A stretch of 48,294 nt of DNA from an uncultured Elusimicrobiales bacterium (GTDB lineage: Bacteria; Elusimicrobiota; Elusimicrobia; Elusimicrobiales; Elusimicrobiaceae): contig CALVGG010000007.1 of the NCBI GenBank assembly GCA_944327085.1, positions 1-48,294 of the forward strand. Direction: 5' to 3'. This document shows, in pieces, positions 212 through 44,652 of the stretch. A program made the position numbers and the translations under genes. The notes below the pieces were generated by a model. That model did no database searches. It saw nothing but the letters and a program-made list of their open reading frames with translations, and was not told the origin of the DNA. Position 1 is the stretch's first letter. Each line of letters opens with the position of its first letter.

Positions 212-1411
212 TTATTTAGCCAAAGCTACCAAGCCGGGCAATTCTTTCCCTTCCACAAATTCCATGCTGGCGCCGCCGCCGGTGGAAACGTGGGAGAGTT
301 CCTTCTGGTTGAATTTGCCTTTTTTCAGCACGTTTACGCTGTCCCCGCCGCCGATGATGGTGGTGGCGCCGGCTTTGGTGGCGTCAATCATGGCTTGGGC
401 AATGGCAAAGCTGCCTTTGGCAAAATTCGGGAATTCAAACACACCCATAGGCCCGTTCCAGAAGATGGTTTTGCATTTGAGGAGTTCTTCGCGGAACGCA
501 GCAATGGTTTTCGGCCCGATATCCAAACCCATCAAATCCGCCGGGATGTTTACGTTATCTACGGCTACGGGTTCGGTGTTTTCGGCAAATTCTTTACCGC
601 AAACGTGGTCTACCGGCAATAAGATTTTTACGCCTTTTTCCTGGGCTTTGGCCAATACGGCTTTGGCTTCGGCTTCTTTTTCGGCGTCAAAGAGGGATTT
701 GCCGATTTCGGCCCCTTGTACTTTTAAGAAGGTATAAGCCATACCGCCGCCGATAACCAACACGTTTACTTTGTCCATCAAGTTATTGAGCAGCATGATT
801 TTGTCGGACACTTTGGCACCGCCTACTACAGCCGCAAACGGGCGGGCAGGGTTTTCCAAAGCTTTGCCTAAAAATTCCACTTCTTTCTGTACCAGGTAAC
901 CGGCGCAGGAAGGCAGGAACTGGGCCACGGCGCTGGTGGAAGCATGGGCGCGGTGTACGGTGCCGAAGGCTTCCTGCACAAACACTTCACCGTGTTTGGC
1001 CAGTTGTTTGGCAAATTCAACGTCGTTCTTTTCTTCTTCCGGGTGGAAGCGGAGGTTTTCCAAGAGTACAATTTCACCGTTTTTGGCGGCGTCCACTACT
1101 TTATCGGCTTCCGGGCCGATGCAGTCTTTGGCAAAGTGTACTTTTACGCCAAACAGTTTTTCCACTTCAGCGGCAACAGGGGCCAGGCTGAATTCCGGGC
1201 ATACTTTGCCCTTCGGGCGGCCCAAGTGCGCCATTAATACGATGCGGCAGTTGTTGTCTAACAGATGTTTAATGGTTTTTTCGGTAGCGACGATGCGTTT
1301 GTTATTGTCTACTTTACCGTCTTTGAGCGGTACGTTGTAATCCACGCGTACCAGCACTTTTTTATTTTTCAGGTCCATGTCCTGAATTTTTTTGATGCTG
1401 TCAAAATTCAT
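212..1411 (-). CDS. pgk: Phosphoglycerate kinase
   Basis: A cytoplasmic glycolytic enzyme that transfers phosphate between 1,3-bisphosphoglycerate and ADP to give ATP. The 399-aa length is usual for the bacterial family. Visible hallmarks are VRVDYNVPL near the N terminus (substrate loop, Tyr where Phe is common), AHLGRPKG, the ENLRFHPEEE segment, VVGGAKVSDKI, the WNGPMGVFE nucleotide region and the C-terminal GGGDSV and STGGGASMEF motifs. The start is supported by aaggag a few bases upstream. It is followed by a terminator that has been tandemly duplicated together with the last codons of this gene. No adjacent gapdh or tpi gene is visible in the window. Confidence 0.97.
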   Translation of the reverse strand: MNFDSIKKIQDMDLKNKKVLVRVDYNVPLKDGKVDNNKRIVATEKTIKHLLDNNCRIVLMAHLGRPKGKVCPEFSLAPVAAEVEKLFGVKVHFAKDCIGPEADKVVDAAKNGEIVLLENLRFHPEEEKNDVEFAKQLAKHGEVFVQEAFGTVHRAHASTSAVAQFLPSCAGYLVQKEVEFLGKALENPARPFAAVVGGAKVSDKIMLLNNLMDKVNVLVIGGGMAYTFLKVQGAEIGKSLFDAEKEAEAKAVLAKAQEKGVKILLPVDHVCGKEFAENTEPVAVDNVNIPADLMGLDIGPKTIAAFREELLKCKTIFWNGPMGVFEFPNFAKGSFAIAQAMIDATKAGATTIIGGGDSVNVLKKGKFNQKELSHVSTGGGASMEFVEGKELPGLVALAK

Positions 1412-1504: not shown

Positions 1505-2227
1505 TTAATTATTCCGCGTGCGGCCCAACAGGCGCAGGATTTCAATATACAGCCAAATCAGCGTTACCAGCAAACCAAACCCGGCGTACCACTCCATATA
1601 TTTGGGGGCGCTGTAGGTACTGGTCATTTGGTCAATAAAATGGAAATCAAAAATAAAATTAAATGCAGCCACCGCGCAAATAAGCACATTTACGGCAATG
1701 GCCCACGGGGCGGCACTGGTAAAATAGCTTACGTTTACGCCAAACAGCATAAGCACCAAAGAAATAATATAAAACAAGCTGATGCCTATGGTTGCGCTTA
1801 AAATACCGATTAATAAACCGCGGGTGGGTTTAATAATGCCCGTTCTGTACAGTACCAGCATGGTAAAAAATACCAGCATGGTAACCGATACCGCCTGCAT
1901 TACAATGCCCGGCATTTGCTGGTTAAACGCGCTGGATATTGTGCCCAGCAGCAGTCCTTCCATAAAGGCGTATACCGGGGCCAAAAAAGGCGCGGTAAGC
2001 GGTTTAAAGCTAATAATTAAGCCCACCACCAGGGCGCCGATGGCGCACGGGGTGATTAACGCGGCGGCCTGTGCGCTGCCCCACGTTAAAAAGGCGCCCA
2101 CCACACAAAGCAGCAGCAAGAAGAACGTTTTGTTGATGGTGCCTTGCAAAGTCATTTGTTGGCCGACGGACACATTATCCTGTGCGCGGCGGAAGGCATT
2201 TTCGTTAAATACTGGGTTTGTTGCCAT
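1505..2227 (-). CDS. Bax inhibitor-1/YccA-family membrane protein
   Basis: A 240-aa polytopic inner-membrane protein with about seven hydrophobic segments starting near residue 33. The N terminus (NPVFNENAFRRAQ then MTLQGTINKTFFLLLL) is the recognisable signature of the bacterial YccA/BI-1 branch. The family has been linked to calcium leak and to modulation of membrane proteolysis, but the bacterial role is not settled. A GAGGGGG ribosome site and a TATAAT box lie upstream. No clear terminator separates it from pgk 94 bp downstream, so read-through into pgk is possible. Confidence 0.85.
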   Translation of the reverse strand: MATNPVFNENAFRRAQDNVSVGQQMTLQGTINKTFFLLLLCVVGAFLTWGSAQAAALITPCAIGALVVGLIISFKPLTAPFLAPVYAFMEGLLLGTISSAFNQQMPGIVMQAVSVTMLVFFTMLVLYRTGIIKPTRGLLIGILSATIGISLFYIISLVLMLFGVNVSYFTSAAPWAIAVNVLICAVAAFNFIFDFHFIDQMTSTYSAPKYMEWYAGFGLLVTLIWLYIEILRLLGRTRNN

Positions 2228-2329: not shown

Positions 2330-3010
2330 TTAACGGGCCTGCAGGGCTTTAAAATCTTTGGGATTCATATTTTCCTTTAACCAGGCAGCCAATTGCGAAG
2401 AGGGTGTTTGGCCCGGAAAAATCTCCGCAAATTCTTCCAGTATAAATGTGTTATCCTGCGGGGTTAAACCTAAAAAAGCGGGCACGGTGATATTTTTGAA
2501 TATTTCCGTTACTGGCGCGCTGAGCACGCGCGGGGCATTGATGCCTTGGGTTGCCTGGGCTTGGGTGCGGTAGGGCACCCGGGGCAGCATTTGGTAAAGG
2601 GCAAAATCCCCTTTGCGTTTAAAGTTTTTGGCGTAAAAATCGTGATGTTTGTATAACACCTTGCGGTTTTTGTAAGAAAGGACAATCTCAATATAAAAAT
2701 TTTTAGCCGGGCCTTGCAGGGTTTGGGCGCAGTCTTCCCCCAATAACAGCAGGCCTTTTTTATTTAATGCCAGGGCTTTGCAGTTTTTTTGTGCTACAAT
2801 TTCCCTCAGGCCGCGGTATTGGCCGGTGGCGCAGGTAATAAATACGTCCAGCACGGCGCGGCTGTCTATATGCCAGGCCAGCTGTTGCCGGCGGGCCTGT
2901 GCCGTTTTGTGGAGAAGGGTATCTTCCAGCTTTTGGGGTTGTGCCCCGGCGGTTAGTGCACAGGCCAGCAGGCAGCTGCAGAATAGGGTTGTAAAAACGG
3001 TTTTATTCAT
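2330..3010 (-). CDS. Secreted paralog 1 of a six-gene tandem family
   Basis: A 226-aa protein with an N-terminal signal peptide (MNKTVFTTLFCSCLLACALTAGA). I do not recognise a named family. It shares with its neighbours a motif of the form C-x-A-L-x-L...LLLL-x3-C (CKALALNKKGLLLLGEDC), a following beta-strand-like segment (IEIVLSYKN) and a Y-x-M/I-L-P strand (YQMLPRV). The Cys pair and hydrophobic spacing resemble the region around the catalytic His of trypsin-like proteases, but Asp stands where TAAHC has His, so catalysis is not expected. It starts 19 bp after the preceding paralog stops, with a poor ribosome site, and is probably co-transcribed with it. Confidence 0.7.
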   Translation of the reverse strand: MNKTVFTTLFCSCLLACALTAGAQPQKLEDTLLHKTAQARRQQLAWHIDSRAVLDVFITCATGQYRGLREIVAQKNCKALALNKKGLLLLGEDCAQTLQGPAKNFYIEIVLSYKNRKVLYKHHDFYAKNFKRKGDFALYQMLPRVPYRTQAQATQGINAPRVLSAPVTEIFKNITVPAFLGLTPQDNTFILEEFAEIFPGQTPSSQLAAWLKENMNPKDFKALQAR

Positions 3011-3029
3011 AGAATGAGCGGGTTGCGTA

Positions 3030-3644
3030 TTAATATAAGTGTAAAGATTTTACCGTTTTGGCTTTGGGCATAAAGTTTAACAGCTTGGCGGCTTGTTCGG
3101 CGGTGATTTCACTGCCGTTGGCAAAAAGTTGTTGCAAAGCCGTCTTTACCGCCGCGGAACGCACCGGCAGAGCAAACAGGATAAACTGGTCTTTGGATAC
3201 AAAATCCCGGCGGGCGGCGTTATCGGTGCGGTAGTAGAGCGGGAAACCGATATCTTCCGCTTTTACGTTCTGTTCCCAGTTGTCATAATTGCCCAGGCTT
3301 TTTAAATCCACAAACAAGACGATTTGATTGTTCTTTGCAGCGTTGTTAATGGCGGGCAGGCAGTCCTTTTTAATGGCCAGGGTGCCTTTGGCGTTTAATA
3401 ACAGGGCAGAGCAGGTGGTTTGCACTTGCAATGTGCCGGACTGCACTTCGCGGGCTCCTTTGGGGTTTACGTAATCTTCCTGTTTATAGTAAGTGATGGT
3501 TACGTTTACGGGGGCTTTATCGTAAATGATTTGTTTTTGGGCTTCTTTGGCTTTTTGTGTTAAAGTTTTGTTTAAATCTTTTTGAGCCCAAGACGCAGGC
3601 GCACATACGGCTACGGCTAAAAGCAGCATAATCAGTTTTTTCAT
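3030..3644 (-). CDS. Secreted paralog 2 of the tandem family
   Basis: A 204-aa protein starting at MKKLIMLLLAVAVCAPASWAQ, which is a signal peptide. This ATG is preferred over an upstream in-frame ATG at 3707 because ggaga sits just before it and a promoter lies between the two. The conserved core reads CSALLLNAKGTLAIKKDC, then VLFVDLKSLGNYDNW, then the strand FILFALPV. The same LGNY-type segment recurs in paralog 3. The second Cys is preceded by KD rather than by the AH of an active trypsin-like protease. Function is unknown. It is likely the first gene of a two-gene unit with the paralog at 2330. Confidence 0.72.
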   Translation of the reverse strand: MKKLIMLLLAVAVCAPASWAQKDLNKTLTQKAKEAQKQIIYDKAPVNVTITYYKQEDYVNPKGAREVQSGTLQVQTTCSALLLNAKGTLAIKKDCLPAINNAAKNNQIVLFVDLKSLGNYDNWEQNVKAEDIGFPLYYRTDNAARRDFVSKDQFILFALPVRSAAVKTALQQLFANGSEITAEQAAKLLNFMPKAKTVKSLHLY

Positions 3645-3678
3645 AGTTTCTCCTTTAAAAACTTCCTTTGTTATTTTT

Positions 3679-3724
3679 ATTCTATCGGTTTTGTATTGGG
3701 GAAACAAGGGTCATTGTACCCAGC
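3679..3724 (-). promoter_or_regulatory. Promoter with operator-like element, paralog 2
   Basis: On the minus strand TTGTTT-17 bp-TAGAAT. The -35 box overlaps a 21-bp element (3704-3724) that matches 18 of 21 bases of the element at 5881-5901, in the same register to the -35 box. Confidence 0.65.
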
Positions 3725-3745
3725 CTGTTATAGGCCTTTGGGCCT

Positions 3746-3774
3746 AAAAAAACCGCCTTTGGGGCGGCTTTTTT
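3746..3774 (-). terminator. Terminator after secreted paralog 3
   Basis: On the minus strand the stem aagccgcc/ggcggttt (one G-T pair) is followed by a T run directly after the stop codon. Confidence 0.8.
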
Positions 3775-3777
3775 AGG

Positions 3778-4896
3778 TTAAGGCAACATATCCAGCGCCC
3801 TTTGTATGCGCGGGGCATAATCCGTAAGCCACAAGTCCGCAATGGTATGGCGGGCAAATAATTTTTGTACTTGCGGGCTGTTTAAAGTTTTGTAAACGGG
3901 TTTCCCGGCCGGAAGGCTGAGGTTAACCCCAAAGGCCTGGGCCATGGTGAGCCAAAATTTTTGTGCGGGCAGCGGGGGTTGGGCGGAATAGAAAGGTTTG
4001 CCGTTTTCATAATTGCCCAGGCCGGGCATGGTTACGTAAAGGCAGATGTTTTCTTCCTGCACGCCGGAGCGTTTGATGTCTTCTATGTATTGGAAAGCGG
4101 CGCCTTCGTCGGTCCCGCCGTTATCGGCCAAAATAACGGCGCCTTTGGGGCTGGCAATAAAGCCTTTGGCCGGGAACGGCGCATTTAAAAATCCGATACA
4201 GTCTTTCACGTCCGCCTGTACGCGGAAGTGTTCTACATAATCGGCAATGTCTTTTTGAAGCTGAGCCAGAAATTTTTTATAAGGGGCCACTTCGGCCGCG
4301 GAATAATTTAAGGTGCTTTCCGTACGCGGCAGGGTAACCTGGCTGGTCGGGGCCGGCAAACTGCGAAACAGCTGCACCAATTCCCCCTCCCGAACGTTTA
4401 ACGGCGCCAAATTGCGCAAAGCCTCCAGCGGCTGCGCCTCCTGCAGCGGTATTTGATAAATGGCGTACCCGTTTTTTAATACTTTAAAATTTTTGGGGTA
4501 GGCGCGCCCAAGGTAAAAGAAACCTTGCCCTTTATATTGGCCTTTGGTAAAGCGGCCCAGGGCTTTCATATCCACGCGGATGGAAACCGGTGCTTGTTCC
4601 GTATAGGCGGTGGCCAGGGCTTCCGTGCAGGGGTTATCTAAAAGCAGGGCGGTTTTGCCCTGTAACAAGGCACTGCAGGATACCGTCCAATAGCGGTGGG
4701 GCAGGTCAGCCTCCAGGGTTACGCGGGCAATGCGCGCGGCGTGGTTTTTTAAGATAGAATCGGCCGAAGCCCCGGCGGTTTTAGGGGCTTGTTTTTCAAC
4801 GGCCTGCTGAAGTGTTTGGGTGATTTCGGCCGGTGCGGCGGTTAAACAAAGCGGTGCGGCTAACAAAAAGGCAAAAAAGGCAGAAATTTTGTACAT
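3778..4896 (-). CDS. Secreted paralog 3, two-module form
   Basis: A 372-aa secreted protein (signal peptide to about residue 21). It is nearly twice the size of its shorter neighbours because the shared module occurs twice. The first copy, about residues 60-160, has CSALLQGKTALLLDNPC, IRVDMKALGRF and YAIYQIPL. The second, about residues 230-330, starts with CIGFLNAPFPAKGFIA and contains ICLYVTMPGLGNYENG, very close to the FVDLKSLGNYDNW stretch of paralog 2. The second module lacks the second conserved Cys. The start has a strong AAGGAGGG ribosome site and its own TATAAT promoter. Function is unknown; internal duplication is read from the sequence. Confidence 0.72.
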   Translation of the reverse strand: MYKISAFFAFLLAAPLCLTAAPAEITQTLQQAVEKQAPKTAGASADSILKNHAARIARVTLEADLPHRYWTVSCSALLQGKTALLLDNPCTEALATAYTEQAPVSIRVDMKALGRFTKGQYKGQGFFYLGRAYPKNFKVLKNGYAIYQIPLQEAQPLEALRNLAPLNVREGELVQLFRSLPAPTSQVTLPRTESTLNYSAAEVAPYKKFLAQLQKDIADYVEHFRVQADVKDCIGFLNAPFPAKGFIASPKGAVILADNGGTDEGAAFQYIEDIKRSGVQEENICLYVTMPGLGNYENGKPFYSAQPPLPAQKFWLTMAQAFGVNLSLPAGKPVYKTLNSPQVQKLFARHTIADLWLTDYAPRIQRALDMLP

Positions 4897-4915
4897 ATAC
4901 CCTCCTTAAATATAT

Positions 4916-4943
4916 ATTATAACCCTTTTTTGCAAAATAACAA
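4916..4943 (-). promoter_or_regulatory. Promoter of secreted paralog 3
   Basis: On the minus strand TTGTTA-16 bp-TATAAT. The -35 box abuts the terminator of the preceding gene. Confidence 0.65.
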
Positions 4944-4965
4944 AAACCCCCGCTGTGGCGGGGGT
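4942..4965 (-). terminator. Terminator after secreted paralog 4
   Basis: The stem acccccgc/gcgggggt with a four-base loop is followed by TTTTT on the minus strand. Confidence 0.8.
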
Positions 4966-4976
4966 GTGAATAAAAA

Positions 4977-5825
4977 TTATTTAAAAAAACTTTCTGTTAC
5001 TATTTTGTTTTGTAATCGCTTCCAGCTGTTGGGCGATACGTGTTTTTGCAAAAAGGGTATCAGGCTTTTGTTTAGCGGACGGTAAAAAAATCCGCTCCCC
5101 AGATCCGTTCCGTCGGGCTCGGCCTGGTTAAAGCCGGCTAAGAATTCCATGCCCAGCTTTTTGGTGCTAAAGAAGAAGGCCGGGTCTCCTGTTTGGGCTT
5201 GCGTGGGGAGGAAAAAACAGCCGTTTTTGTTGCATACTTGTTTTACTTGAAATATTTTGCTGTTGCGCCCCCACAGTAAGCCTTCTTTGTTGACAGCGGC
5301 TTGGGTGAACATGCGGGTGGAGGGTTGCGTCATAATAAACAAATTGGCGTTGGGTTTGCCGGCCAGTGTTTCCACGGTTTTAGCGTCAGCGGGGTTGGCC
5401 TCAATGAGAATGGTTTTGGAGGCGGCATCTTCAAAAAAGGCTTTGGCGGGGCGGCCGTTAATTTCTATGGAGGTTATTTTGCGGTATGCCACTTTGCGGC
5501 AGGTAGCCTCGCCGTTATGGTCCCGGCAGGTGGCGTTTTCGTCCAAGCCTTTGCAGGTTTGAGATGCTAGCAGATAGTTGGGGTCTATTAACACGGCAGT
5601 GCAGGTTTTGTTTAAAATATTGTCTTTGCCCACTTGGTTTTCAAAACGGGCTTGTACGCGCAGGGTGATTGGAAAAACAGCATCTAAATGGGAACGGGTA
5701 GACGGATAAATAGCCGCCTGCGCCTGCTGCGTTTTGGATTGCAATACCGTTTGTAAAGGTTCCGCCTGGGCTAAGGTAACAAGGGTTGCAGCCGCAAGCA
5801 TAAAAAGGCCGGAAAAAAGTTTCAT
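4977..5825 (-). CDS. Secreted paralog 4, closest to a trypsin-like fold
   Basis: A 282-aa protein with a signal peptide (MKLFSGLFMLAAATLVTLAQA). The segment CTAVLIDPNYLLASQTC lines up with the CSGVLIxxxxVLTAAHC region of S1-type serine proteases, but Thr replaces the catalytic His. Further on, TGDPAFFF with a trailing GMEFLAGF resembles the GDSGGPL...GI block with Pro in place of the catalytic Ser. Extra Cys pairs (CRDHNGEATC, CNKNGC) suggest disulphides. The likely reading is a secreted pseudoprotease of chymotrypsin fold. This is inference from motif spacing only. It has its own promoter with the shared operator-like element and its own terminator. Confidence 0.7.
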   Translation of the reverse strand: MKLFSGLFMLAAATLVTLAQAEPLQTVLQSKTQQAQAAIYPSTRSHLDAVFPITLRVQARFENQVGKDNILNKTCTAVLIDPNYLLASQTCKGLDENATCRDHNGEATCRKVAYRKITSIEINGRPAKAFFEDAASKTILIEANPADAKTVETLAGKPNANLFIMTQPSTRMFTQAAVNKEGLLWGRNSKIFQVKQVCNKNGCFFLPTQAQTGDPAFFFSTKKLGMEFLAGFNQAEPDGTDLGSGFFYRPLNKSLIPFLQKHVSPNSWKRLQNKIVTESFFK

Positions 5826-5855
5826 ACAGGATCTCCTTAAGTATTATTTATCTTC

Positions 5856-5901
5856 ATAGTAGCTAAATAAACTTTTGCCCACAAGGGCCCTTGTGCCCAG
5901 C
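5856..5901 (-). promoter_or_regulatory. Promoter with perfect palindrome, paralog 4
   Basis: On the minus strand TTGTGG-17 bp-TACTAT. The -35 box lies inside a perfect 16-bp palindrome, CACAAGGGCCCTTGTG (5880-5895), within the element shared with 3704-3724. This placement is typical of an operator. Confidence 0.7.
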
Positions 5902-5941
5902 GGGCTCTGGGTCTTTTGGCCCTTAGAGCCCTGTATAAAAC

Positions 5942-5968
5942 AAAAAACCCGCCGAAAGGCGGGTTTTT
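5942..5968 (-). terminator. Terminator after secreted paralog 5
   Basis: The stem aaaaacccgcc/ggcgggttttt with a GAAA-type loop region is a strong rho-independent signal on the minus strand. Confidence 0.85.
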
Positions 5969-5983
5969 GTAAATTGCTGGGTT

Positions 5984-6502
5984 TTATTTTTCTAAGATTG
6001 CACGCGCCATATGTTCGGAAAAGGGAGAAATTCCTTTAATGGCCTTGGCAAATTTACCTTTGGGGTTTACTTTAATACTGTAAACATACAACATGGGTTT
6101 GCCGTCTTCGTGCGAAGCGTACATGTCTTTCCCGGCGTTATTATTGCTGGAGTAAAAACCCTTGCCAAAAGAGCTTAAATCCACACGAACGGACACCGGG
6201 GCTAAGTTACCTTCCACATCCCCTTCCCCGATAATATCCACCATGCGGCTGGCGTTTTCGTCCAGCAAGATGTCTGCCTGGGTAAGGCTGCTGTTTACGC
6301 GCAATATCACCCCATAGGCCTGCACCGGTTCCAGCCCCTTGGCGGAAATGACAACCGGCACTTTGCGGGAGGCTTTCTTTTGGGCAACCTGCGCTTTGGC
6401 CTTGGCTTTTTGCTCTATTACCTTTCCTTGCGATACCTGTGCCTGCACAGGCAAAGCCGCACAAATACTTAATGCAAACATAACAGCAATCAGTTTTTTC
6501 AT
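5984..6502 (-). CDS. Secreted paralog 5, shortest and lacking the Cys pair
   Basis: A 172-aa protein with a signal peptide (MKKLIAVMFALSICAALPVQA). After a Lys/Ala/Gln-rich stretch it keeps the family layout: a hydrophobic strand (YGVILRVNSSLTQADILLDE), a polar segment, VSVRVDLSSFGKGFYSS, and a final strand (MLYVYSIKV). Both conserved cysteines are absent, unlike in the other five members. The start is supported by GAGGAG and a TTGAAA/TATAAT promoter. Function is unknown. Membership is judged from order and the VDL-S-FG segment and is less sure than for the others. Confidence 0.62.
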   Translation of the reverse strand: MKKLIAVMFALSICAALPVQAQVSQGKVIEQKAKAKAQVAQKKASRKVPVVISAKGLEPVQAYGVILRVNSSLTQADILLDENASRMVDIIGEGDVEGNLAPVSVRVDLSSFGKGFYSSNNNAGKDMYASHEDGKPMLYVYSIKVNPKGKFAKAIKGISPFSEHMARAILEK

Positions 6503-6533
6503 ATTAAATCTCCTCTACCAACTGTTCTATTAT

Positions 6534-6561
6534 ATTATAGAAAATAAAAAGTTGGTTTCAA
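6534..6561 (-). promoter_or_regulatory. Promoter of secreted paralog 5
   Basis: On the minus strand TTGAAA-16 bp-TATAAT, with the -35 box a few bases past the stop of the preceding gene. No palindrome like those of paralogs 2 and 4 is seen. Confidence 0.7.
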
Positions 6562-6565
6562 GGGG

Positions 6566-7270
6566 TTAATAGAAGCCTTCCACTTTGGCCGAGAAATGAT
6601 CCGGCAGAGAATCGCTCATCCGTTCACGTTTATTTTGGGGTTGTTTCGGGTCAAACAAACTGCCGAGAGAAAAAGGCACAATGTACTTTTTCCCCTCCAC
6701 CAGCCAGCGGTCCCGCTTGGCTACAAAGATGGGAGATTTTAAAGCCGGCATTTGTTCTTTTACGGATTGCGTAAGCGGGATAACCGCCAGGGCGTAGTTG
6801 TCTTTCAATACAATGGTGTTTCTGGGGTAGTTGGTAATTTTTAACACGCGCCCGGGCAGTATATTATTTAAATCAACGGAGAATGCCAATTTGTCTTTGG
6901 TGTGAAACAAAGCTTTGCGGCAGTCTTCATTTAATAAAATCGTGCCGTTATTATCTAATAATAACGCTTGGCAATTATCGGAATAAGTTTTATTGTAATT
7001 AATGGCTTTGTAGGATTGCGGCGCAAAACGGATTTGCACCACGGCCTGCGGGTTGATGCGGTAGGCGCGCATTTGGCCTTCTTGCTGTTGGGTAGCGTCT
7101 TTTGCTTGCAATTGGCGGATTAAAGCCTGTTTGAGTTTCTTGTCTATATCGGTTTGGGTTTCTTGGAAAGCGGGGCTTAAAAGCAGTTCTTTCCAGCTGA
7201 TTTTATTTTGGGCAAACAACGGCTGGGCCCCCATTACGGCGGCAACTAACACTATAATCCATTTTTTCAT
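6566..7270 (-). CDS. Secreted paralog 6 of the tandem family
   Basis: A 234-aa protein with a signal peptide (MKKWIIVLVAAVMGAQPLFA). The core motif CQALLLDNNGTILLNEDC is followed by LAFSVDLNNILPGR and YALAVIPL, matching the order in paralogs 1-3. Asp precedes the second Cys, so the His of a trypsin-like triad is again missing. The C-terminal third is basic and lacks obvious domains. It is the first gene of the array after the groEL terminator. No terminator separates it from paralog 5, although paralog 5 has a promoter of its own. Confidence 0.7.
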   Translation of the reverse strand: MKKWIIVLVAAVMGAQPLFAQNKISWKELLLSPAFQETQTDIDKKLKQALIRQLQAKDATQQQEGQMRAYRINPQAVVQIRFAPQSYKAINYNKTYSDNCQALLLDNNGTILLNEDCRKALFHTKDKLAFSVDLNNILPGRVLKITNYPRNTIVLKDNYALAVIPLTQSVKEQMPALKSPIFVAKRDRWLVEGKKYIVPFSLGSLFDPKQPQNKRERMSDSLPDHFSAKVEGFY

Positions 7271-7401: not shown

Positions 7402-9036
7402 TTACATCATCCCCATGCCGCCCATACCGGGCATGGCCGCCTGGCCATGGGTATGTTCCTTTTCGGGAGCGTCTGCCACCAAAGCTTCGGTAAGCAGTAC
7501 GGTTCCGGTAATAGAAGCGGCGTTTTCCAACGCGGTGCGGACCACTTTGGCCGGGTCCACCACGCCGGCTTTAAGCAAGTCGCCATAGGTGTTGTCGTCG
7601 GCATTATAGCCGTCGGCCGCGCCTTTCATTTTCAGTACGTTGTCGGCCACTACGGCGCCGTCCAACCCGGCGTTTACGGCAATTTGTTTCAGCGGCGCCA
7701 CCAGGGCTTTCTTTACAATGTTGATACCGGTGCGTACGTCTTCGTTATCGGTTTTCAACGCGTCCAAAGCGGCTTGGCTGCGGGCCAAAGCTACACCGCC
7801 GCCGGGCACAATGCCTTCTTCCACGCCGGCTTTGGTGGCGTTTTTGGCGTCTTCCACTTTGGCTTTTTTGGCTTTCAGTTCGGTTTCCGTAGCGGCACCT
7901 ACGCTGATAACAGCCACACCGCCGGAAAGCTTGGCCAAGCGTTCCTGCAGTTTTTCTTTGTCGTATTCGCTCTTGGAGTTTTCAATCTGTTTGCGGATTT
8001 GTTCCGAGCGGGCCGCAATGGCTTCTTTGCTGCCTTTGCCGCTTACGATGGTGGTGTTTTCTTTATCAATTACCACGCGGGCGGCTTGGCCCAACATGGC
8101 CAGTTCGGCTTTGTCTAACTTAATGCCGCGTTCTTCGCTCAGCACGTCGCCGCCGGTCAAGATGGCAATATCTTCCAGCATTTCTTTGCGGCGGTCACCA
8201 AAGCCGGGGGCTTTTACGGCGCAGCCTTTCAAGGTGCCGCGCAGTTTGTTTACCACCAGGGTGGCCAGGGCTTCACCGTCTACATCTTCGGCGATGATTA
8301 AGAATTGTTTGCCGCTCTGTACGATTTTTTCCAAAATGGGCAGCAAATCATTCATGCTGGAAATTTTCTTGTCGGTAATAATGATATACGGGTTTTCCAA
8401 CACGCATTCCATACGTTCGGAATCCGTTACAAAATACGGGGAAATATAGCCGCGGTCAAACTGCATACCTTCCACAACGTCCAGCTGAGTGGTGGCCGTT
8501 TTGCCTTCTTCCACGGTAATTACGCCTTCCGCACCCACTTTTTCAATGGCTTCGGCAATCATATTGCCGATTTCGCGGTCGTTGGAAGAAATGGTGGCAA
8601 TTTGCGCTTTTTCTTCTTTCGTTTTTACCGGTTTGTGCATTTTTTCCAATTCTTTTTTGGTGGCTTCTACGGCCATTTCAATCCCTTTCTTTACCAAAGT
8701 AGGGTTGGCGCCGGCGGTAATGTTTTTGATACCTTCGGTAAGCATGGCGTCTGCCAGTACGGTGGCGGTGGTGGTACCGTCGCCGGCTACATCGTTGGTT
8801 TTGGAAGCTACTTCGCGGATGAGCTGCGCGCCCATATTTTCAAACTTGTCTTCCAGTTCAATATCTTTGGCAATGGTTACACCGTCGTCAATAATAAGCG
8901 GAGAGCCAAATTTCTTTTCCAACACTACGCTGCGGCCCTTGGGCCCCAACGTTACTTTTACTGCGTTTGCTACTTTTTCAATACCCGCTTTCATTTTGGC
9001 GCGGGCCTGATCACCATAAATTACTTGTTTAGCCAT
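7402..9036 (-). CDS. groEL: Chaperonin GroEL (Hsp60)
   Basis: The large subunit of the cytoplasmic ATP-driven folding chamber. The 544-aa length and all landmarks are standard: [14 protein letters not shown] near the N terminus, the ATP-binding stretch around [15 protein letters not shown], the apical-domain segment, the [12 protein letters not shown] block and a Gly/Met-rich tail ([10 protein letters not shown]). It is preceded by AGGAGG and lies 20 bp after groES in the same operon, controlled by the promoter and CIRCE site upstream of groES. Confidence 0.98.
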
Positions 9037-17504: not shown

Positions 17505-19127
17505 ATGAAAAAAATATTAACCAGTATGGCACTGATTTCGCTCTGCGGCGCAGCGTTGCAGGCGGATGAGTTAAAATTTGTGACAGTGTTGTCACAACCC
17601 ATCGGCGCGTTTGCGCAGGTGGAATCGTTAAACGAGGAGCGTGCTTCAAAGACGCTTTTTGTTAACTTTTGTAACACTTCGGTAAACACCGGGGAGATCA
17701 ATGCGCAGGGTATGGTAAAGATGAACGAGCTTCGTCTTACCGGGGATACTGCGCGTGCCGGCAGTGCTACTAATAAGATGAACTACCAGATAACGGACGC
17801 GAACGGCTTAGAGATAGGCGAAGGCGGCAGTTTATCCGGAGGTAAGTTGCTTGCGAATACGGCTAACCCGCAGGACATTACGGTAGCGGCTGGTACGAAC
17901 ATCAATGCATCCAGCACGTTTGTAGCGGCGGACATCCCGAGCATGACGATAGGCGGGAGCACACATATAGTGTATCCGGCCGAAAGCCTGACCAATGCGA
18001 ATGTAGCTTGGGAAGCCACCACGGACGAATACCGGTATAATTTTAAAGTGGATAAAGACAAAGGCGTTATTAAGGATGGTACGACGGAATACAAATCGTA
18101 CCCGATACGTACGGATAAACGAGGAGGAGAATGCCGGTGTGGGAACTCTCGCAGCCCGTTTGGTTCCCGCCATTGCACGAATGAATGGAACACGCAGACG
18201 TGTTCTTCACAAGAGACCCCTTCTTCCCGTCGTGTAGGGACGATATTTTGGCGCTTTAACTATGAAACTTGCCAATGGTACGAAGCGGACCCGAAGGGGT
18301 ATGAGAGTACGAGCGATTGGTTGAATTGGAAGAAATGGGGTACGATCCCTTCTCACCACAACTGCCAGTGCAAGGGTTATGATGGTGGCAGCTATAATGA
18401 TAGTACTTCGAGCTCATTTGACCAGCAATACGGTAACCCGCGCTTTAAGAGTGGGGCCATTAATGGGAACATGGTGAATGAGAGCACTTCTACCCGCACG
18501 CGCTTGTGCCGGTATGATAAAGTGAGAGGTTTTGGCAGCAAATATGACGGCAACATTAATGAACGTTATGATTTTAATAGTTGCCAATGGGATTTAACCT
18601 CTGAAAATTGTTACTGTAGCACCACGAGCCGTGGTAACTATGCGCCGAAAGTACAATACAGTGGCACTAGCACCAAGACGCGGCAATGCTCTGCTGAGAA
18701 CAGCAAATGGACGGGTACGATAACGGACACGTATAACCATAATGACTGCACCTGGAGCTATGGAGACACCAGCAGCTGTGAATGTGCGGGACAGCCTTCT
18801 AACTTAACGAAGACGGAAAGCTGCCCTGCCGGGTATACGGGTTCGAAGACGTATAAATATAACACCAGCTTAGATAAATGCGCTTGGGAAGAAACTTCCA
18901 ACACTTGTAAGAAAAACTTAGTGTGGAAACAAGTGCACTACGAAGAAACTGGTTACGGTTGGTCGGATCCGTGTCCGTCTTCTAGTCCTAGTGGTGACTG
19001 TTCTGGTTCCTGCAGCACAGAAGGGGCTACTTGCTCTGATTCTTGGGATACTGGAAGCACCGCTTGCAGTAACATGGGTAGCGAATGCTGCACAGCATAT
19101 GCTGAGTATGAATGTTTACCGGAATAA
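17505..19127 (+). CDS. Cys-rich repeat surface protein, unrecognised
   Basis: A 540-aa secreted protein with a signal peptide (MKKILTSMALISLCGAALQA). Residues about 20-190 are Ser/Thr/Asn/Ala-rich and beta-prone. From about residue 200 on there are four or five cysteine-framed modules of about 50-70 residues. Each has a TKTRxC or TRTRLC-type start, a G-x-I-T/N-D/E-x-Y block, a C-x-W segment (CQWYEAD, CQWDLTS, CTWSYGD, CAWEETS) and a CxC or CK boundary. The last 60 residues hold many cysteines. Likely disulphide-stabilised and exposed outside the cell. Codon choice (many acg, gcg, gta) differs from neighbouring metabolic genes but resembles the partial gene at 48002. Function is unknown. Confidence 0.75.
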   Translation: MKKILTSMALISLCGAALQADELKFVTVLSQPIGAFAQVESLNEERASKTLFVNFCNTSVNTGEINAQGMVKMNELRLTGDTARAGSATNKMNYQITDANGLEIGEGGSLSGGKLLANTANPQDITVAAGTNINASSTFVAADIPSMTIGGSTHIVYPAESLTNANVAWEATTDEYRYNFKVDKDKGVIKDGTTEYKSYPIRTDKRGGECRCGNSRSPFGSRHCTNEWNTQTCSSQETPSSRRVGTIFWRFNYETCQWYEADPKGYESTSDWLNWKKWGTIPSHHNCQCKGYDGGSYNDSTSSSFDQQYGNPRFKSGAINGNMVNESTSTRTRLCRYDKVRGFGSKYDGNINERYDFNSCQWDLTSENCYCSTTSRGNYAPKVQYSGTSTKTRQCSAENSKWTGTITDTYNHNDCTWSYGDTSSCECAGQPSNLTKTESCPAGYTGSKTYKYNTSLDKCAWEETSNTCKKNLVWKQVHYEETGYGWSDPCPSSSPSGDCSGSCSTEGATCSDSWDTGSTACSNMGSECCTAYAEYECLPE

Positions 19128-34014: not shown

Positions 34015-34752
34015 ATGACAAAACCCTTACAAAACCGCATTGCCCTGGTTACCGGCGCCAGCCGCGGCATTGGCCTGGCCATCGCCAAAACTTTGGCGCA
34101 GGAGGGCTGCCATATTTGGCTTAATTACCACTCCAACCACGCGGCCGCGCAAGCCGCCAAAAAAGAAATAGAGGCTTTAGGCTCTTCTTGCACACTGCTG
34201 CCTTTTGACGTGGCCGACGCACAAGCCGTGCGCGCCGCGCTGGAGCCTTTGCTTCAAACCCAAACGCCCTATATTTTGGTAAACAACGCGGGCGTACGTA
34301 AAGACAATTTGCTTATTTGGATGAAAGACGAAGAATGGACCGGCGTGATTAATACCGTTCTGGGCGGATTTCATAACGTAACCAAAACCGTTTTGGGCGC
34401 TATGATACACGCCAAAGAGGGGCGCATTATTAACATCGCCTCCGCCGCGGCCCATGCGCCCGTTCCGGGGCAGACCAATTACTCCGCCGCCAAGGCCGGC
34501 ATTGTGGGGGCCACGCGCTCCCTGGCGCTGGAAGTGGCCAAACGCAATATTTTGGTAAATGCCGTGTCTCCCGGGTTTATTGAAACCGATATGTTAGACG
34601 GCCTGCCCATGGATAAAATTTTACCGCTTATTCCCCTTCGCCGCCTAGGCAAAGCGCAGGAAGTGGCCGACCTGGTAGCCTTTTTATGTTCGGACAAGGC
34701 CTCCTACATTACCGGCCAGGCTTTTGGGGTAAACGGCGGCGTCTGTATGTAA
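34015..34752 (+). CDS. 3-oxoacyl-ACP reductase (FabG-like), polyene cluster
   Basis: A 245-aa short-chain dehydrogenase that would reduce the beta-keto group of the growing chain with NADPH. It has the TGASRGIG cofactor loop (residues 13-20), NNAGVRKDN, the catalytic Ser in NIASAAAHAP, and YSAAKAG holding Tyr and Lys. The C terminus ITGQAFGVNGG is FabG-like. It is the first plus-strand gene of the cluster, only 40 bp from the divergent methyltransferase. Context, not sequence alone, assigns it to the polyene pathway rather than to housekeeping fatty acid synthesis. Confidence 0.92.
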   Translation: MTKPLQNRIALVTGASRGIGLAIAKTLAQEGCHIWLNYHSNHAAAQAAKKEIEALGSSCTLLPFDVADAQAVRAALEPLLQTQTPYILVNNAGVRKDNLLIWMKDEEWTGVINTVLGGFHNVTKTVLGAMIHAKEGRIINIASAAAHAPVPGQTNYSAAKAGIVGATRSLALEVAKRNILVNAVSPGFIETDMLDGLPMDKILPLIPLRRLGKAQEVADLVAFLCSDKASYITGQAFGVNGGVCM

Positions 34753-34782
34753 AAGCTCTCAAATTGATATAATGGTTTAACT

Positions 34783-36006
34783 ATGCATTTGCAAGCACAT
34801 TTGCCCAAAGTGGTTATCACCGGGTTGGGCGCCGTTTCCCCTTACGGCGTGGGGGTTGGCGCGCTTAAAAAAGGCTTGTATGAGGGACTGAACTGTATTC
34901 ACCGGGTGGAGGAGCTGGAAAAGCTGGATTTGATAAAAACCAAAGTGGCCGCCACGGTGAAGGAAATTGACTATTCTTCCATCCCCCGCCAGCGCCGCCG
35001 CTCCATGAGCCGCATGGCCGTTTACGCTTATTACGCCGCGCAGGAAGCCCTGGCCCAGGCCGGTTACACGCAGGCCCCCAAAGGGCTGGGCTTTTTTATG
35101 GGCTCTACGCTAAACAGTATTTCGGTTTGGATGGATGTTTGCAACCAGTGTTTGGGCGGGCATGCGGAGCTGGTAAAAACCTCTTCTTTTTTGCAAATTA
35201 TGAACCACTCCCCCCAAGCCGTGGTGGGCCAGGCGTTAAAGATAGACGGGCCCTCTTTTTCGGGGGCGGCCGCTTGTGCAACGGGGCTGTTAAACATTGG
35301 CCTGGCGGCAGGTGCCATACAAAGCGGGCTTGCCAGCCAGGTATTGTGCGGCGGTACGGAAGAATACCACCCCATGTTTAGCGCCTGTTTTGACATTATG
35401 CAGGCCACCAGCCATAATTTTAACGACCGGCCGGAACTTTCCTGCCGCCCGTTTGACGCAGAGCGCACGGGCCTGGTATGCAGCGAAGGCTGCGGCCTCT
35501 TGTTTTTAGAGCGGGAAGACGTTGCTTTAGCCCGCGGCGCACAAATTTTGGGCGAAGTGGTTTCTTTTGCTTCCAACACGGAAACGCAAAACATAGCCAA
35601 CCCTTCCGCCCAGACCATGCAGGATTGTATGCAATGCGCCTTGGAAAAAGCCGGCTTAACCCCGGCGGATATTGATTTTGTAAACGCCCATGCCACGGCC
35701 ACTTTGGCGGGCGACGCGGCCGAATCGGCCGCTGTTAACCAGGTATTTGGCCCAAGCGTAAAAGTAAACAGCTTTAAAGGCCATTTGGGGCACACCATGG
35801 GTGCTGCGGGCGCGCTGGAGCTGATTGCCTGCCTGCAAATGATGCAAGACGGTATTGTTTTGCCTACCAAAAACCTGCAAACCCCGGCGCAGGACTGCGC
35901 CCCCTTAAATTATGTGCGCCAAAAAGAAAATTTTAAAATACATACATTACTTAAAAACAGTTTTGCCATAGGCGGCAATAATTGTTCTCTTATCGTAAGG
36001 AGATAA
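34783..36006 (+). CDS. Beta-ketoacyl synthase 1, polyene cluster
   Basis: A 407-aa condensing enzyme of the FabF type. The catalytic triad is intact: Cys165 in FSGAAACATGLL, His in NAHATATLAGD and His in GHLGHTMGAAG. LCGGTEEYHPMFSACFD and FDAERTGLVCSEGCG are also typical. It lies between the ketoreductase and the first ACP with short gaps. In aryl polyene clusters a ketosynthase in this position is thought to carry out chain elongation or priming. Which of the two synthases here pairs with the chain-length factor cannot be told from sequence, though synteny favours the second one. Confidence 0.92.
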   Translation: MHLQAHLPKVVITGLGAVSPYGVGVGALKKGLYEGLNCIHRVEELEKLDLIKTKVAATVKEIDYSSIPRQRRRSMSRMAVYAYYAAQEALAQAGYTQAPKGLGFFMGSTLNSISVWMDVCNQCLGGHAELVKTSSFLQIMNHSPQAVVGQALKIDGPSFSGAAACATGLLNIGLAAGAIQSGLASQVLCGGTEEYHPMFSACFDIMQATSHNFNDRPELSCRPFDAERTGLVCSEGCGLLFLEREDVALARGAQILGEVVSFASNTETQNIANPSAQTMQDCMQCALEKAGLTPADIDFVNAHATATLAGDAAESAAVNQVFGPSVKVNSFKGHLGHTMGAAGALELIACLQMMQDGIVLPTKNLQTPAQDCAPLNYVRQKENFKIHTLLKNSFAIGGNNCSLIVRR

Positions 36007-36010
36007 CCCC

Positions 36011-36283
36011 GTGAACATTACCAAAGAGGAAATCATTCGCCAAACCAACGAGGCGTTAAAAAAAGAATTTGAATTGTCGGACGCCCAGCTTACCCCCCAG
36101 GCCAATTTAAAGGACGACATCGGCCTGGACAGCCTGGACGCGGTGGACATGGTGGTGGTGCTTGAACAGAAGTTCCACATTAACATCCGCCAAGGGTATG
36201 ATTTGCGCTCTATTGTTACTTTGCAAAACTTGTATGATTTTATAGAGAAAATCGCCCAAGAAAGCGCACAAAAAAACCAGTAA
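36011..36283 (+). CDS. Acyl carrier protein 1, polyene cluster
   Basis: A 90-aa carrier starting at GTG with AAGGAG upstream. The phosphopantetheine attachment Ser41 lies in DDIGLDSLDAVDMV. Acidic helix II and IV are as expected. It would hold the starter or the growing chain as a thioester. No phosphopantetheinyl transferase is seen nearby, so the housekeeping enzyme must activate it. Confidence 0.93.
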   Translation: MNITKEEIIRQTNEALKKEFELSDAQLTPQANLKDDIGLDSLDAVDMVVVLEQKFHINIRQGYDLRSIVTLQNLYDFIEKIAQESAQKNQ

Positions 36284-36287
36284 TTCC

Positions 36288-37016
36288 ATGCGCGTGCGTA
36301 CTTTTTTAAATACGGTTCTGTTTGGGGTCTGGGCGGTGTGCTGGTTGGCCGTTTCCGGGCTGGCGGCAGGGCCGTTTTTGTATATTTGGCCCGGTAAAAA
36401 CGGCCGCAACGCACGGCGGCTGGTGTATGTGCAGGCCAAGGGCATATTATTTTTTATGCGTTTGTGTTCCCGCTCCTGGTGGGTGGAAACGCCGGCGCCC
36501 AGGCCCAAAGGCCCGTGTGTGGTGGCGGCCAATCACGCCTCGGCACTGGATTTGTATACGGTGGCCGCTTTCGGTTATGACAATGTGGTTTACATTACCA
36601 AAGGCTGGGTGTTTAAACTGCCGTTTTTCGGTTATGTAATGCGCCGCGCGGGATATATAGACGCGCAAACCACCCCCCCTCAGCAAATGCTGGAGCGCTG
36701 CCGCCAAGCGGTGCAGGACGGGTGCGATATTGTGCTTTTTCCGCAAGGGTCCAGAAAGGACCCCAACGCCCGTTTTAAAAGTGGGGCTTTTTACTTGGCT
36801 ATTGAGCTGGGGCTTCCGGTGGTGCCTTTGGCCATTGGCGGCACGGGGGATATGCTGCCCAGCGGGGCCGTGTGGCTTAAACCGGCCGATATTTTGCTGG
36901 CCGCTTTGCCCCCCGTTTACCCGGCAGACTTTACCGGCCCGCTGGACCATTTACATATGGCGCGTGCGGTAAAAAACCGCATTATGGATTATTTGCATAA
37001 GGAGCAAAAACAATGA
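36288..37016 (+). CDS. PlsC-type acyltransferase, polyene cluster
   Basis: A 242-aa membrane-bound 1-acyl-glycerophosphate acyltransferase-like enzyme with an N-terminal helix (about residues 7-30). The catalytic NHASALDLY motif (NHx4D) is near residue 83, FPQGSRKDPNARFKSGA carries the second block, and GLPVVPLAIGGTGDMLPSG the third. Such an enzyme is a regular member of aryl polyene clusters, where it is thought to help attach the polyene acyl chain to a lipid. It overlaps the next gene by four bases. Confidence 0.88.
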   Translation: MRVRTFLNTVLFGVWAVCWLAVSGLAAGPFLYIWPGKNGRNARRLVYVQAKGILFFMRLCSRSWWVETPAPRPKGPCVVAANHASALDLYTVAAFGYDNVVYITKGWVFKLPFFGYVMRRAGYIDAQTTPPQQMLERCRQAVQDGCDIVLFPQGSRKDPNARFKSGAFYLAIELGLPVVPLAIGGTGDMLPSGAVWLKPADILLAALPPVYPADFTGPLDHLHMARAVKNRIMDYLHKEQKQ

Positions 37017-37429
37017 AAGCTTTTTTTGCGGGTGTACTGGCTGTTTGTCTGGCGGCTTGTGCGTCAGCCCCGGTGCAAAAGCTGGAAAAGCAATTTTCTT
37101 TGCCGGCCGTTTCCAATACCCGGCAGGTAAAAGTGGCCGTATTTCGCGCGTGCGCGCGGCTGGGGTGGGAATGCGTAAGCGTAACGGACTCTTCGGCCGA
37201 GGCCAATTTTTTCCAAAACGGCCGCCAGGTATGGGCGGATATTGCCTATTCCCCCCGCTCTTACACTATCAGCTACAAGCACAGCACGGGGCTTAATTAT
37301 ACGGCCGGGCGGCAAAGTTCCATAAGCCCCCTTTATATGCGCTGGATTAAACGCCTAAGCGTTCAAATTGATAGAGAATTACAAAAAATCAACCGGGCAG
37401 GAAATGCAACTTCCGCCCAAGGAGTGTAA
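37013..37429 (+). CDS. Lipoprotein A of a paralogous pair, polyene cluster
   Basis: A 138-aa lipoprotein: signal MKAFFAGVLAVCLAACAS with lipobox LAAC. The mature part has the pattern V-x-V-A...G-W-E-C, then ADIAYSPRSYTISYKHSTGL and LYMRWIKRLSVQIDREL. The following gene repeats this pattern (VNIPYTQDSFSIEYVSSENM, YKQWVRNLEVDIYRF), so the two arose by duplication. The family is known to me only as small uncharacterised lipoproteins. It could be part of the export or anchoring machinery at the outer membrane; this is inferred from location alone. Confidence 0.8.
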   Translation: MKAFFAGVLAVCLAACASAPVQKLEKQFSLPAVSNTRQVKVAVFRACARLGWECVSVTDSSAEANFFQNGRQVWADIAYSPRSYTISYKHSTGLNYTAGRQSSISPLYMRWIKRLSVQIDRELQKINRAGNATSAQGV

Positions 37430-37433
37430 TCCC

Positions 37434-37808
37434 ATGAAAAAACTTATCTGTTTGTTAACCCTTTGTTTGTTTGCGGCGGCGTGCCGTTCTTACCCCACGG
37501 TGTATGAAGTAAAAAACCACGCCGTAACCGTAGCCGAGGGCCAAACCCTGCGCCAGGCTATTTTGCAGGCCGGCCGTGGGCGCCGCTGGATGATGCACGA
37601 AGTAAAACCCGGCCTGATACAGGGCGTTTTAAACGTGCGCGGGTATGAGGTGGTGGTTAACATCCCTTATACGCAGGATAGTTTTTCCATTGAGTACGTA
37701 AGCAGTGAAAATATGAGGTATAACCCCAAAAAGAACCGTATCCACCGCAAGTATAAACAGTGGGTGCGCAATTTGGAAGTGGACATATACCGTTTTGCCC
37801 AAATGTAA
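37434..37808 (+). CDS. Lipoprotein B of a paralogous pair, polyene cluster
   Basis: A 124-aa lipoprotein (MKKLICLLTLCLFAAACRS, lipobox AAAC). The start at 37434 is chosen for its AAGGAG site and signal peptide; an in-frame ATG at 37368 would lie inside the previous gene. The mature protein has TLRQAILQAGRGRRWMMHE, then GLIQGVLNVRGYEVVVNIPY, SFSIEYVSSENMRYNPKK and YKQWVRNLEVDIYRF. It is paralogous to the gene just before it, five bases apart. Function is unknown. Confidence 0.82.
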   Translation: MKKLICLLTLCLFAAACRSYPTVYEVKNHAVTVAEGQTLRQAILQAGRGRRWMMHEVKPGLIQGVLNVRGYEVVVNIPYTQDSFSIEYVSSENMRYNPKKNRIHRKYKQWVRNLEVDIYRFAQM

Positions 37809-37812
37809 TGAT

Positions 37813-38265
37813 ATGGACGTCACCCAAATAGATTTAACCCGCATTATGCCGCACAGGCGGCCCATGTTGCTGGTGGAAAAAATAGAATCCATTTCCCCCA
37901 CGGGGGGCCGTGTGCGCGCGGCAAACCCGGAGGACGGTTTATTTGCCGGGAAAGACGGGTTTTTATTGCCGCCTGCTTTAATTGAAATGGTGGCGCAAGC
38001 CTATGCCGCGTGCGACGGGGCCAAACGTTTTTTAGAAGGCACTTTGCCTAAAGACGGCGGCGGTTTTTTGGTGAATGTGCGTGATTTTCATTTTTTAACC
38101 CCGGTACGCGCCGGGCAGGAAATACGGGTGGACGTAACCGTAAAAGACCGGTTTTTGGATACCCGCATAGTGGAAGGCACCGTATGGGCGGGCGGTAAAA
38201 AAGCGGCCGAAGGCCAGGTGTATGTTTTTGTGTGGGAAAACACCCCCCCGCAGGAGAATAAATGA
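37813..38265 (+). CDS. Hotdog-fold dehydratase 1, polyene cluster
   Basis: A 150-aa hotdog enzyme related to FabZ/FabA. The N-terminal MPHRRPMLLVEKI carries the catalytic His, LLPPALIEMVAQAYAA the central helix with the Glu. The start at 37813 is preferred over 37795, which lies inside the previous gene. It would remove water from the beta-hydroxyacyl-ACP to give a double bond. With no enoyl reductase in the cluster the double bonds remain, which is what makes a polyene. It overlaps the next gene by four bases. Confidence 0.85.
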   Translation: MDVTQIDLTRIMPHRRPMLLVEKIESISPTGGRVRAANPEDGLFAGKDGFLLPPALIEMVAQAYAACDGAKRFLEGTLPKDGGGFLVNVRDFHFLTPVRAGQEIRVDVTVKDRFLDTRIVEGTVWAGGKKAAEGQVYVFVWENTPPQENK

Positions 38266-44404: not shown

Positions 44405-44649
44405 AAGAAATTAAACAGCTTATTGCCGCCAATATTGATTTGGGCGGGGCGGATTTGTCGGGTTTTGATGCGTCTTCCCCCATTTTTGGCGAAAAAGGCC
44501 TGGGGCTAGACAGTTTAGACGCCGTGGAACTGATTATGCTTTTGCAAAAAAAGTACGGCATTACCATAGAAAATATGCAGCAAGGACGCGAAATTTTTAA
44601 AGATTTGGGCACCCTGGCCGCTTATGTGGACGCCCACCGTAAAAAATAA
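44392..44649 (+). CDS. Acyl carrier protein 2, polyene cluster
   Basis: An 85-aa carrier with Ser41 in GLGLDSLDAVELIM as attachment point. It starts 13 bp before the end of the acyltransferase gene. Two carriers per cluster is the rule in aryl polyene pathways, one probably for the starter and one for extension. Sequence does not say which is which. Confidence 0.93.
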   Translation: MQTIEEIKQLIAANIDLGGADLSGFDASSPIFGEKGLGLDSLDAVELIMLLQKKYGITIENMQQGREIFKDLGTLAAYVDAHRKK

Positions 44650-44652
44650 CTT

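Follow-up and report, generated by a model that had tools for sequence, protein, structure and literature searches.

The 48,294-nucleotide stretch of DNA analysed here (the window), contig 7 of the 12-contig, 1.67-Mb genome of a gut bacterium belonging to Elusimicrobiota, carries on its minus strand, at positions 7270-2330, a tandem array of six genes, designated p6 to p1, whose products bear export signals. With a rough probability of 0.62, this array encodes exported, disulfide-stabilised proteins that would go back to S1/PA-clan trypsins of the same genus, through gene duplication and the loss of catalytic activity. In this explanation p4 would retain both chymotrypsin barrels, with Thr, Lys and Thr replacing the catalytic residues His57, Asp102 and Ser195, and p1, p2, the first half of p3, p6 and, more weakly, p5 would correspond to a diverged first barrel only, carrying the Cys42-Cys58 loop except in p5. 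As judged from their sequences, the array proteins cannot act by the serine protease mechanism of the S1 family and would instead act as binding proteins, whether in the periplasm, on the cell surface or in the lumen of the gut, with proteases, protease inhibitors or substrates that are also met by their active relatives as the likeliest partners. An initial annotation had proposed six tandem genes at 2330-7270 that encode a family of degenerate trypsin-fold pseudoproteases. The six open reading frames were indeed found at these coordinates and the locus is conserved in related species, and the pseudoprotease assignment holds for p4 in fold, descent and triad loss; it had to be modified for p1, p2, p3, p5 and p6, which apparently possess the first barrel only.

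At this locus two large groups of proteins are distinguished, a 'long' family of about 260-400 residues that includes p4 and a 'short' family that includes p1, p2, p3, p5 and p6. The start codon of p2 is the ATG at 3644 and not the TTG at 3707. The six genes are as follows:

6566..7270, minus strand: p6, exported, 234 residues; Cys pair C100-C117; short (putative one-barrel) family; orthologs in four related genomes
5984..6502, minus strand: p5, exported, 172 residues; without Cys pair; short family by profile comparison
4977..5825, minus strand: p4, exported, 282 residues; predicted two-barrel S1 pseudoprotease; His57 replaced by T90, Asp102 by K137 and Ser195 by T212
3778..4896, minus strand: p3, exported, 372 residues; short-family domain at about residues 70-190
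3030..3644, minus strand: p2, exported, 204 residues; predicted single six-stranded barrel plus two helices
2330..3010, minus strand: p1, exported, 226 residues; Cys pair C77-C94; short family

p4 as a two-barrel pseudoprotease

The relationship of p4 to trypsins was revealed by a profile of the p4 family built from an alignment of 51 sequences, in which no trypsin was included. When compared with the sequences of the PDB, the best 60 of its 174 matches were all S1 proteins (best E-value 1.7e-4, neuropsin), and the matches, which include neuropsin, kallikreins, activated protein C and thrombin, were aligned across the Cys42-Cys58 loop and the strand carrying Asp102. The AlphaFold2 (AF2) model of p4, obtained with ten input sequences, reached a predicted local distance difference test score (pLDDT) of 82.7 and a predicted TM-score (pTM) of 0.81. 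All 50 PDB matches listed by Foldseek for this model belong to the S1 family or PA clan (best E-value 1e-6, probability 1.00), and the Z-score given by VIA was 14.2; its best rows align 176-180 residues and others up to 196, spanning both barrels (model residues 39-276). The predicted structure accords with the two six-stranded beta-barrels of the chymotrypsin type that characterize the S1/PA-clan fold, the strands of the first barrel lying at residues 50-61, 69-81, 84-88, 107-122, 129-133 and 138-142. Since the Foldseek TM-scores are moderate (about 0.4) and the root-mean-square deviation is high, the barrels of p4 may be packed differently.

The Cys42-Cys58 loop, with the pattern C-x-A/G-[VL]...[WY]-[LI]-x-[AST]-x-x-C, is present in p4 and both its cysteines are invariant in the alignment (51/51). 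The catalytic triad is lost: His57 is retained in one of the 51 sequences, Asp102 in two and Ser195 in eight, none has two of the three, and p4 itself lacks an active S1 triad, having Thr90, Lys137 and Thr212 at these positions. The last assignment comes from the block AQTGDPAF, which aligns with GDSGGPVF such that Q-T-G-D-P stands against D-S-G-G-P and Thr212 occupies the Ser195 position. A GDSGGP-like block with Pro in place of Ser had been noted in p4 earlier; the block is kept, as QTGDPAF, and the Pro resulted from misregistration, in which GDPAFF was read as GDSGGP. Pro at the Ser195 position is ruled out by the register common to the family and the active trypsins (QTGDPAF against DSGGPVF), which gives Thr. 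The Pfam Trypsin model (PF00089) did not match p4, which hence stays below its gathering cut-off, and matched only three of the 51 family members, at E-values of 0.089 or worse, and searches of Pfam, NCBIfam and PHROGs with all six array proteins yielded no usable match. The fold, descent and triad loss of p4 and its 50 aligned relatives are supported by independent tests.

Active trypsins of the same genomes and the direction of change

Members keeping the triad, for which the initial annotation had proposed a profile search of related genomes, are encoded at other loci of the same genomes: the weakest matches of the p4-family profile are trypsins that keep the triad and come from the same genus and family, with the motifs CQAVRLxKxWFLTAAHC, DVALIxxDP and GxSGGGVF. 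In one of them (L225) the intact motifs read CQAVRLDANWFLTAAHC, DVALIRLDP and GNSGGGVF. In a profile comparison with signal peptides removed, the aligned active trypsins and the p4 family matched over 188 columns, at 5.5e-11. These active trypsins (L001, L003, L220-L230, L232 and L233) resemble the array proteins in the C-x-A-V-R-L...C loop, the Asp102 strand and the S-G-G/S block, and differ from them by the retention of His, Asp and Ser and by their location at other loci; two of them, L001 and L003, are encoded elsewhere in the genome that carries the array. Partial loss is also observed. A 313-residue protein of genus g5 (L231; G079:C78:13300-14800) keeps His (LLTHKHC) and Asp (TDLVLI) with a Ser block that reads PGEPIYF, and on its sequence it may be an intermediate on the way to an inactive protein. 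A member of the long family (L089:219-1076, genome G051) retains the catalytic His (NWLAVSAHC), with Asp and Ser gone. From this pattern of intact and partial-loss relatives we infer a change from active to inactive. With that direction, p4 is firmly supported as an S1 pseudoprotease, which descended from an active S1 lineage, lost its triad and is kept up by selection.

The presence of active exported trypsins in the same genomes also bears on a narrower form of the binding explanation, the confidence in which overlaps with that in the explanation as a whole. According to it, the array proteins would serve as decoys or regulators of the organism's own active trypsins, either by occupying inhibitors or by helping these enzymes to fold, localise or become activated, in the manner of insect serine protease homologs (SPH). 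Dead relatives do regulate proteases elsewhere, since MamO activates MamE-dependent proteolysis (PMC4794232). However, the active trypsin genes are unlinked to the array, residues of an inhibitor-binding loop are not identifiable and the one-barrel forms would not have a full substrate cleft, which leaves such a role tentative and on balance rather doubtful. General binding, an inhibitor decoy and regulation of active trypsins would each be compatible with the sequences.

Signal peptides, cysteines and kinship of the six proteins

All six proteins have a Lys/Arg-containing n-region, a hydrophobic core and an A-x-A-type cleavage site (AGA-Q, SWA-Q, LTA-A, AQA-E, VQA-Q and LFA-Q), as judged by eye, in line with the signal peptides proposed previously. 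The proposed Cys pair, spaced by 16-17 residues around a hydrophobic strand, was confirmed in five of them (C77/C94 in p1, C78/C95 in p2, C74/C90 in p3, C75/C91 in p4 and C100/C117 in p6), and the His that precedes the second Cys in active trypsins is, as had been stated, absent from all five. Mature p2 and p6 contain no further cysteines.

Kinship was detectable already by blastp (p1-p2, 1e-7; p1-p6, 3e-6; p3-p6, 6e-5). Profile comparisons that included the signal peptide were inflated (1e-16 to 5e-7) and were hence redone without it, giving 3e-9 for p2-p3, 1.6e-5 for p1-p6, 3e-5 for p2-p1 and 1e-4 for p2-p6, with controls at 0.1-0.8; the controls were BI-1, a membrane protein encoded next to the array, and glyceraldehyde-3-phosphate dehydrogenase (GAPDH). 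At the level of sequence, kinship among the array paralogs exceeds chance. p5 has no Cys pair, and in this respect departs from the layout previously ascribed to the array, yet it belongs there by profile, as the combined short profile matched it at 8.8e-6 over 125 columns (signal peptides removed) and grouped it with p1, p2, p3 and p6. Because these signal-peptide-free comparisons match, p1, p2, p3, p5 and p6 are regarded as one family.

The short family and its probable links to trypsins

Besides p4, an AF2 model was obtained for p2 (pLDDT 79, pTM 0.71). Its six predicted strands (residues 45-59, 67-82, 88-92, 109-113, 137-140 and 154-158) match those of the first barrel of the p4 model in order and spacing, with the Cys pair at matching places. 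After the sixth strand, which ends at residue 158, only 46 residues follow, forming mostly two helices and one strand, and hence p2 would have no room for a second barrel carrying Ser195. The fold anticipated by the initial annotation is indicated more weakly for p2, through the strand order of barrel 1, than for p4. The PDB entry with the highest Foldseek probability (0.75) is DegP, and all 50 rows listed by VIA are PA-clan proteases. Against a viral structure library, the best matches of the p2 model were large unnamed entries at probabilities of 0.95-0.84 and a picorna-like polyprotein at 0.69.

The link between the short family and trypsins is stepwise and involves a further dead-trypsin-like family encoded at another locus, represented by L247 (G000:C3:261715-262479, outside the window). 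This bridge family (A8) occurs in 48 of 90 family genomes, all of the genus of the array and usually with one copy per genome, and is characterized by a C...C loop (C-x-G-V) and, in many members, a G-D/E-P-x-F block (V-G-[DE]-P-x-F). In profile comparisons without signal peptides, its matches to the p4 and short families reached 3.1e-5 and 2.8e-5, respectively, with the BI-1 and GAPDH controls for the bridge, short and p4 profiles at 0.24 or worse. Compared directly, the short and p4 families matched at 7.5e-4, over the Cys loop only. An hmmsearch with a trimmed p4-family profile reached short proteins at an E-value of 0.12 at best, and its top nine matches were all real short proteins, placed above every reversed, shuffled and unrelated control. 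Searches of PDB sequences with the short-family and bridge profiles returned no match.

Several observations weigh against a trypsin origin of the short family. The best PDB E-value of the p2 model in Foldseek (0.03) belongs to an unrelated protein, with DegP at 0.1, and its highest VIA Z-score, 6.8, is below 8 and within the warning range of the tool. When the short family was compared directly with the active trypsins by profile, no match resulted (0.13-0.57). Each profile E-value refers to one comparison out of several dozen, and no fold is assigned to the second half of p3 or to the C-terminal tails of p1 and p6. The weak fold matches of p2 and the negative comparison with active trypsins, together with the modest values of the direct comparison with the p4 family and of the trimmed search, would be expected if p4 and its relatives are dead trypsins and p1, p2, p3, p5 and p6 are unrelated small exported beta-proteins, sharing with them no more than a convergent signal peptide, helical prefix and Cys pair. 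We consider this unlikely, given that the bridge family, with its Cys loop and G-D/E-P-x-F block, links both sides at about 3e-5, that strand order and Cys positions of p2 agree with barrel 1 of p4, that the trimmed search ranked real short proteins above all controls, that the 50 VIA rows listed are all PA clan and that long and short members reside at one locus.

Trypsin ancestry of p1, p2, p3, p5 and p6 through the bridge family is thus supported at the sequence level, the tie between the short and p4 families being weaker than the ties within the short family. On its model, p2 is quite probably a one-barrel derivative of trypsin, with lower confidence in such a derivation for p5 and for the second half of p3. 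It is somewhat favoured that the N-terminal chymotrypsin barrel, together with the Cys42-Cys58 loop, was turned into an independent exported module, which multiplied beside the two-barrel pseudoproteases and maybe doubled in p3. A doubled half-barrel in p3 is a guess from its sequence: the internal repeat VTMPGLGNYENGKPFYS versus VDLKSLGNYDNWEQ reaches only 0.05 by profile. Residues of about 233-300 of p3, in its C-terminal half, faintly resemble the short domain (ICLYVTMPGLGNYENGKPFYS versus IVLFVDLKSLGNYDNWEQ, profile value 0.05).

A remodelled active site

In the p4 family the position of the former Gly197 is occupied by Asp in 46 of the 51 members, followed by Pro in 50. This conserved Asp-Pro, as read from the alignment, marks a remodelled former active site, and since the bridge family likewise has a D/E-P block, the G-D-P-x-F site appears to be under constraint. 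The same conservation could be taken to mean that the proteins are active enzymes with another catalytic centre on the same scaffold, for example one using the conserved acid of G-D-P-x-F. This is very improbable, as no conserved nucleophile or general base accompanies the Asp and the one-barrel forms would not have this entire region.

Locus organization, distribution and selection

The order of genes on the minus strand is groEL, p6, p5, p4, p3, p2, p1, the BI-1-like gene and pgk. Neighbouring features are as follows:

7402..9036, minus strand: groEL, upstream flank of the syntenic interval
5943..5968, minus strand: terminator-like hairpin separating p5 from p4, matching the consensus; hairpins of this kind are no commoner here than in shuffled sequence
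4946..4965, minus strand: terminator-like hairpin between p4 and p3, consensus match; equally no commoner than in shuffled sequence
1505..2227, minus strand: gene for a BI-1/YbhL-like membrane protein, downstream flank
212..1411, minus strand: pgk (phosphoglycerate kinase), next gene of the syntenic block

Because of this background frequency of hairpins, any division of the array into transcription units is a suggestion only.

groEL and pgk were located in 90 family genomes, and 60 stretches were fetched for comparison of the locus. The relatives include metagenome-assembled genomes of Elusimicrobiales/Elusimicrobiaceae from sheep colon and horse faeces, and isolate RUG129. The arrangement groEL, exported genes, BI-1, (GAPDH), pgk recurs across most of the genus. 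A contig scan with BI-1 returned mostly unrelated bacteria, ten returned loci (L113-L122) being from near relatives. The number of array-type genes per stretch varies from zero to six, with six in the species of the array and in G002, five in G064 and four in G041, counts to be read with G047 split over two contigs, several stretches ending at contig ends and G009, G024 and G055 not judgeable. Of 341 genomes of the phylum, representing 100 genera, 59 have matches to the p4 profile; they come from three genera, all of one family. The short profile matches 15 of 199 genomes, from two genera of the same family. At two loci, L081 (G020) and L106 (G079), type IV pilin-like genes are likewise present between groEL and pgk, accompanied in G020 by an ATPase-like gene, and for this reason the interval may serve as a general site of insertion.

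For all six genes, pairwise ratios of nonsynonymous to synonymous substitution (dN/dS) lie at about 0.1-0.3 in comparisons of up to five species, the exact values being soft since synonymous sites are near saturation in many pairs. For p6 the ratio is about 0.14-0.31 across orthologs in four related genomes, and for p4 it is 0.10, from a single ortholog pair with saturated dS. At the same time, the array proteins have only 43-74% amino-acid identity to the window copies, as compared to 78-100% for BI-1 among five close genomes (83-97% versus its homologs) and 99% for GroEL in the four genomes used for array identity. The array genes are therefore both maintained and fast-evolving, and their variable copy number and fast sequence change might reflect a changing set of partners. 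That the array is a graveyard of decaying, functionless protease genes, as the lost catalytic residues, an in-frame TGA stop in one relative (G003) and the seemingly truncated one-barrel forms could suggest, is largely ruled out by dN/dS, with six intact genes under purifying selection across four to five species (p4 in two) and with signal peptides and Cys pairs retained.

Elsewhere in the window, a cluster at 34015-47747 contains genes for two clear ketosynthases, a reductase, an acyltransferase, a LolA-like protein, an MMPL transporter, a glycosyltransferase and an AMP-ligase, and presumably resembles lipid clusters of the aryl-polyene type. At 17505-19127 a 540-residue exported-looking protein with a Cys-rich C-terminal half is encoded, without a Pfam match.

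Relation to known pseudoproteases

Trypsin-fold pseudoproteases are best known from animals. Insect SPH have full two-barrel domains, often with clip domains. One-barrel forms are not known in the scabies mite family SMIPP-S, nor is a Cys42-Cys58 loop in MamO. A literature search on Elusimicrobiota with trypsin-like or tandem secreted proteins retrieved nothing relevant in the library searched. SMIPP-S comprise 16 inactive S1 paralogs beside one active protein, and complement inhibition has been reported for them (PMC4930577). They resemble the array as a lineage-specific S1-type multigene family with mutated triads and an active relative, and differ in being from an animal, in their relation to the Sar s 3 allergen protease and in having a reported non-catalytic function. 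The bacterial examples encountered here in the literature are MamO and its magnetotactic counterparts; in MamO the nucleophilic Ser is replaced by Thr, and the protein binds metal and activates a protease with which it works (PMC4794232). As a bacterial trypsin-fold pseudoprotease with Thr for Ser as in p4 and a non-catalytic role, MamO is similar; however, it is of HtrA/Deg type, has a metal-binding His pair, functions in magnetosome formation from a dedicated gene island and does not belong to a multicopy exported array. MamO/HtrA-type pseudoproteases resemble the array in triad degeneration only. Insect SPH, which are reported to nearly equal their active paralogs in number in some cases (PMC11172050), are likewise trypsin paralogs with a lost triad, but from animals.

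Implications

The array represents neither a new fold nor the first pseudoprotease family. What seems to be new is the combination of a syntenic multicopy array in bacteria with active relatives, partial-loss forms and apparent one-barrel derivatives. A scaffold for cutting proteins seems to have been reused repeatedly for a task that involves no cutting, such as binding. Genes that are nameless in all libraries searched hereby receive a family assignment, and a series from enzyme to binding protein would become traceable through the active relatives, the forms that lack one or two triad residues and the apparent one-barrel derivatives. The family could test whether half a trypsin is a stable domain; if the half-trypsin reading is true, evolution would be able to separate the two barrels of the enzyme, with the first put to use as a binding domain.

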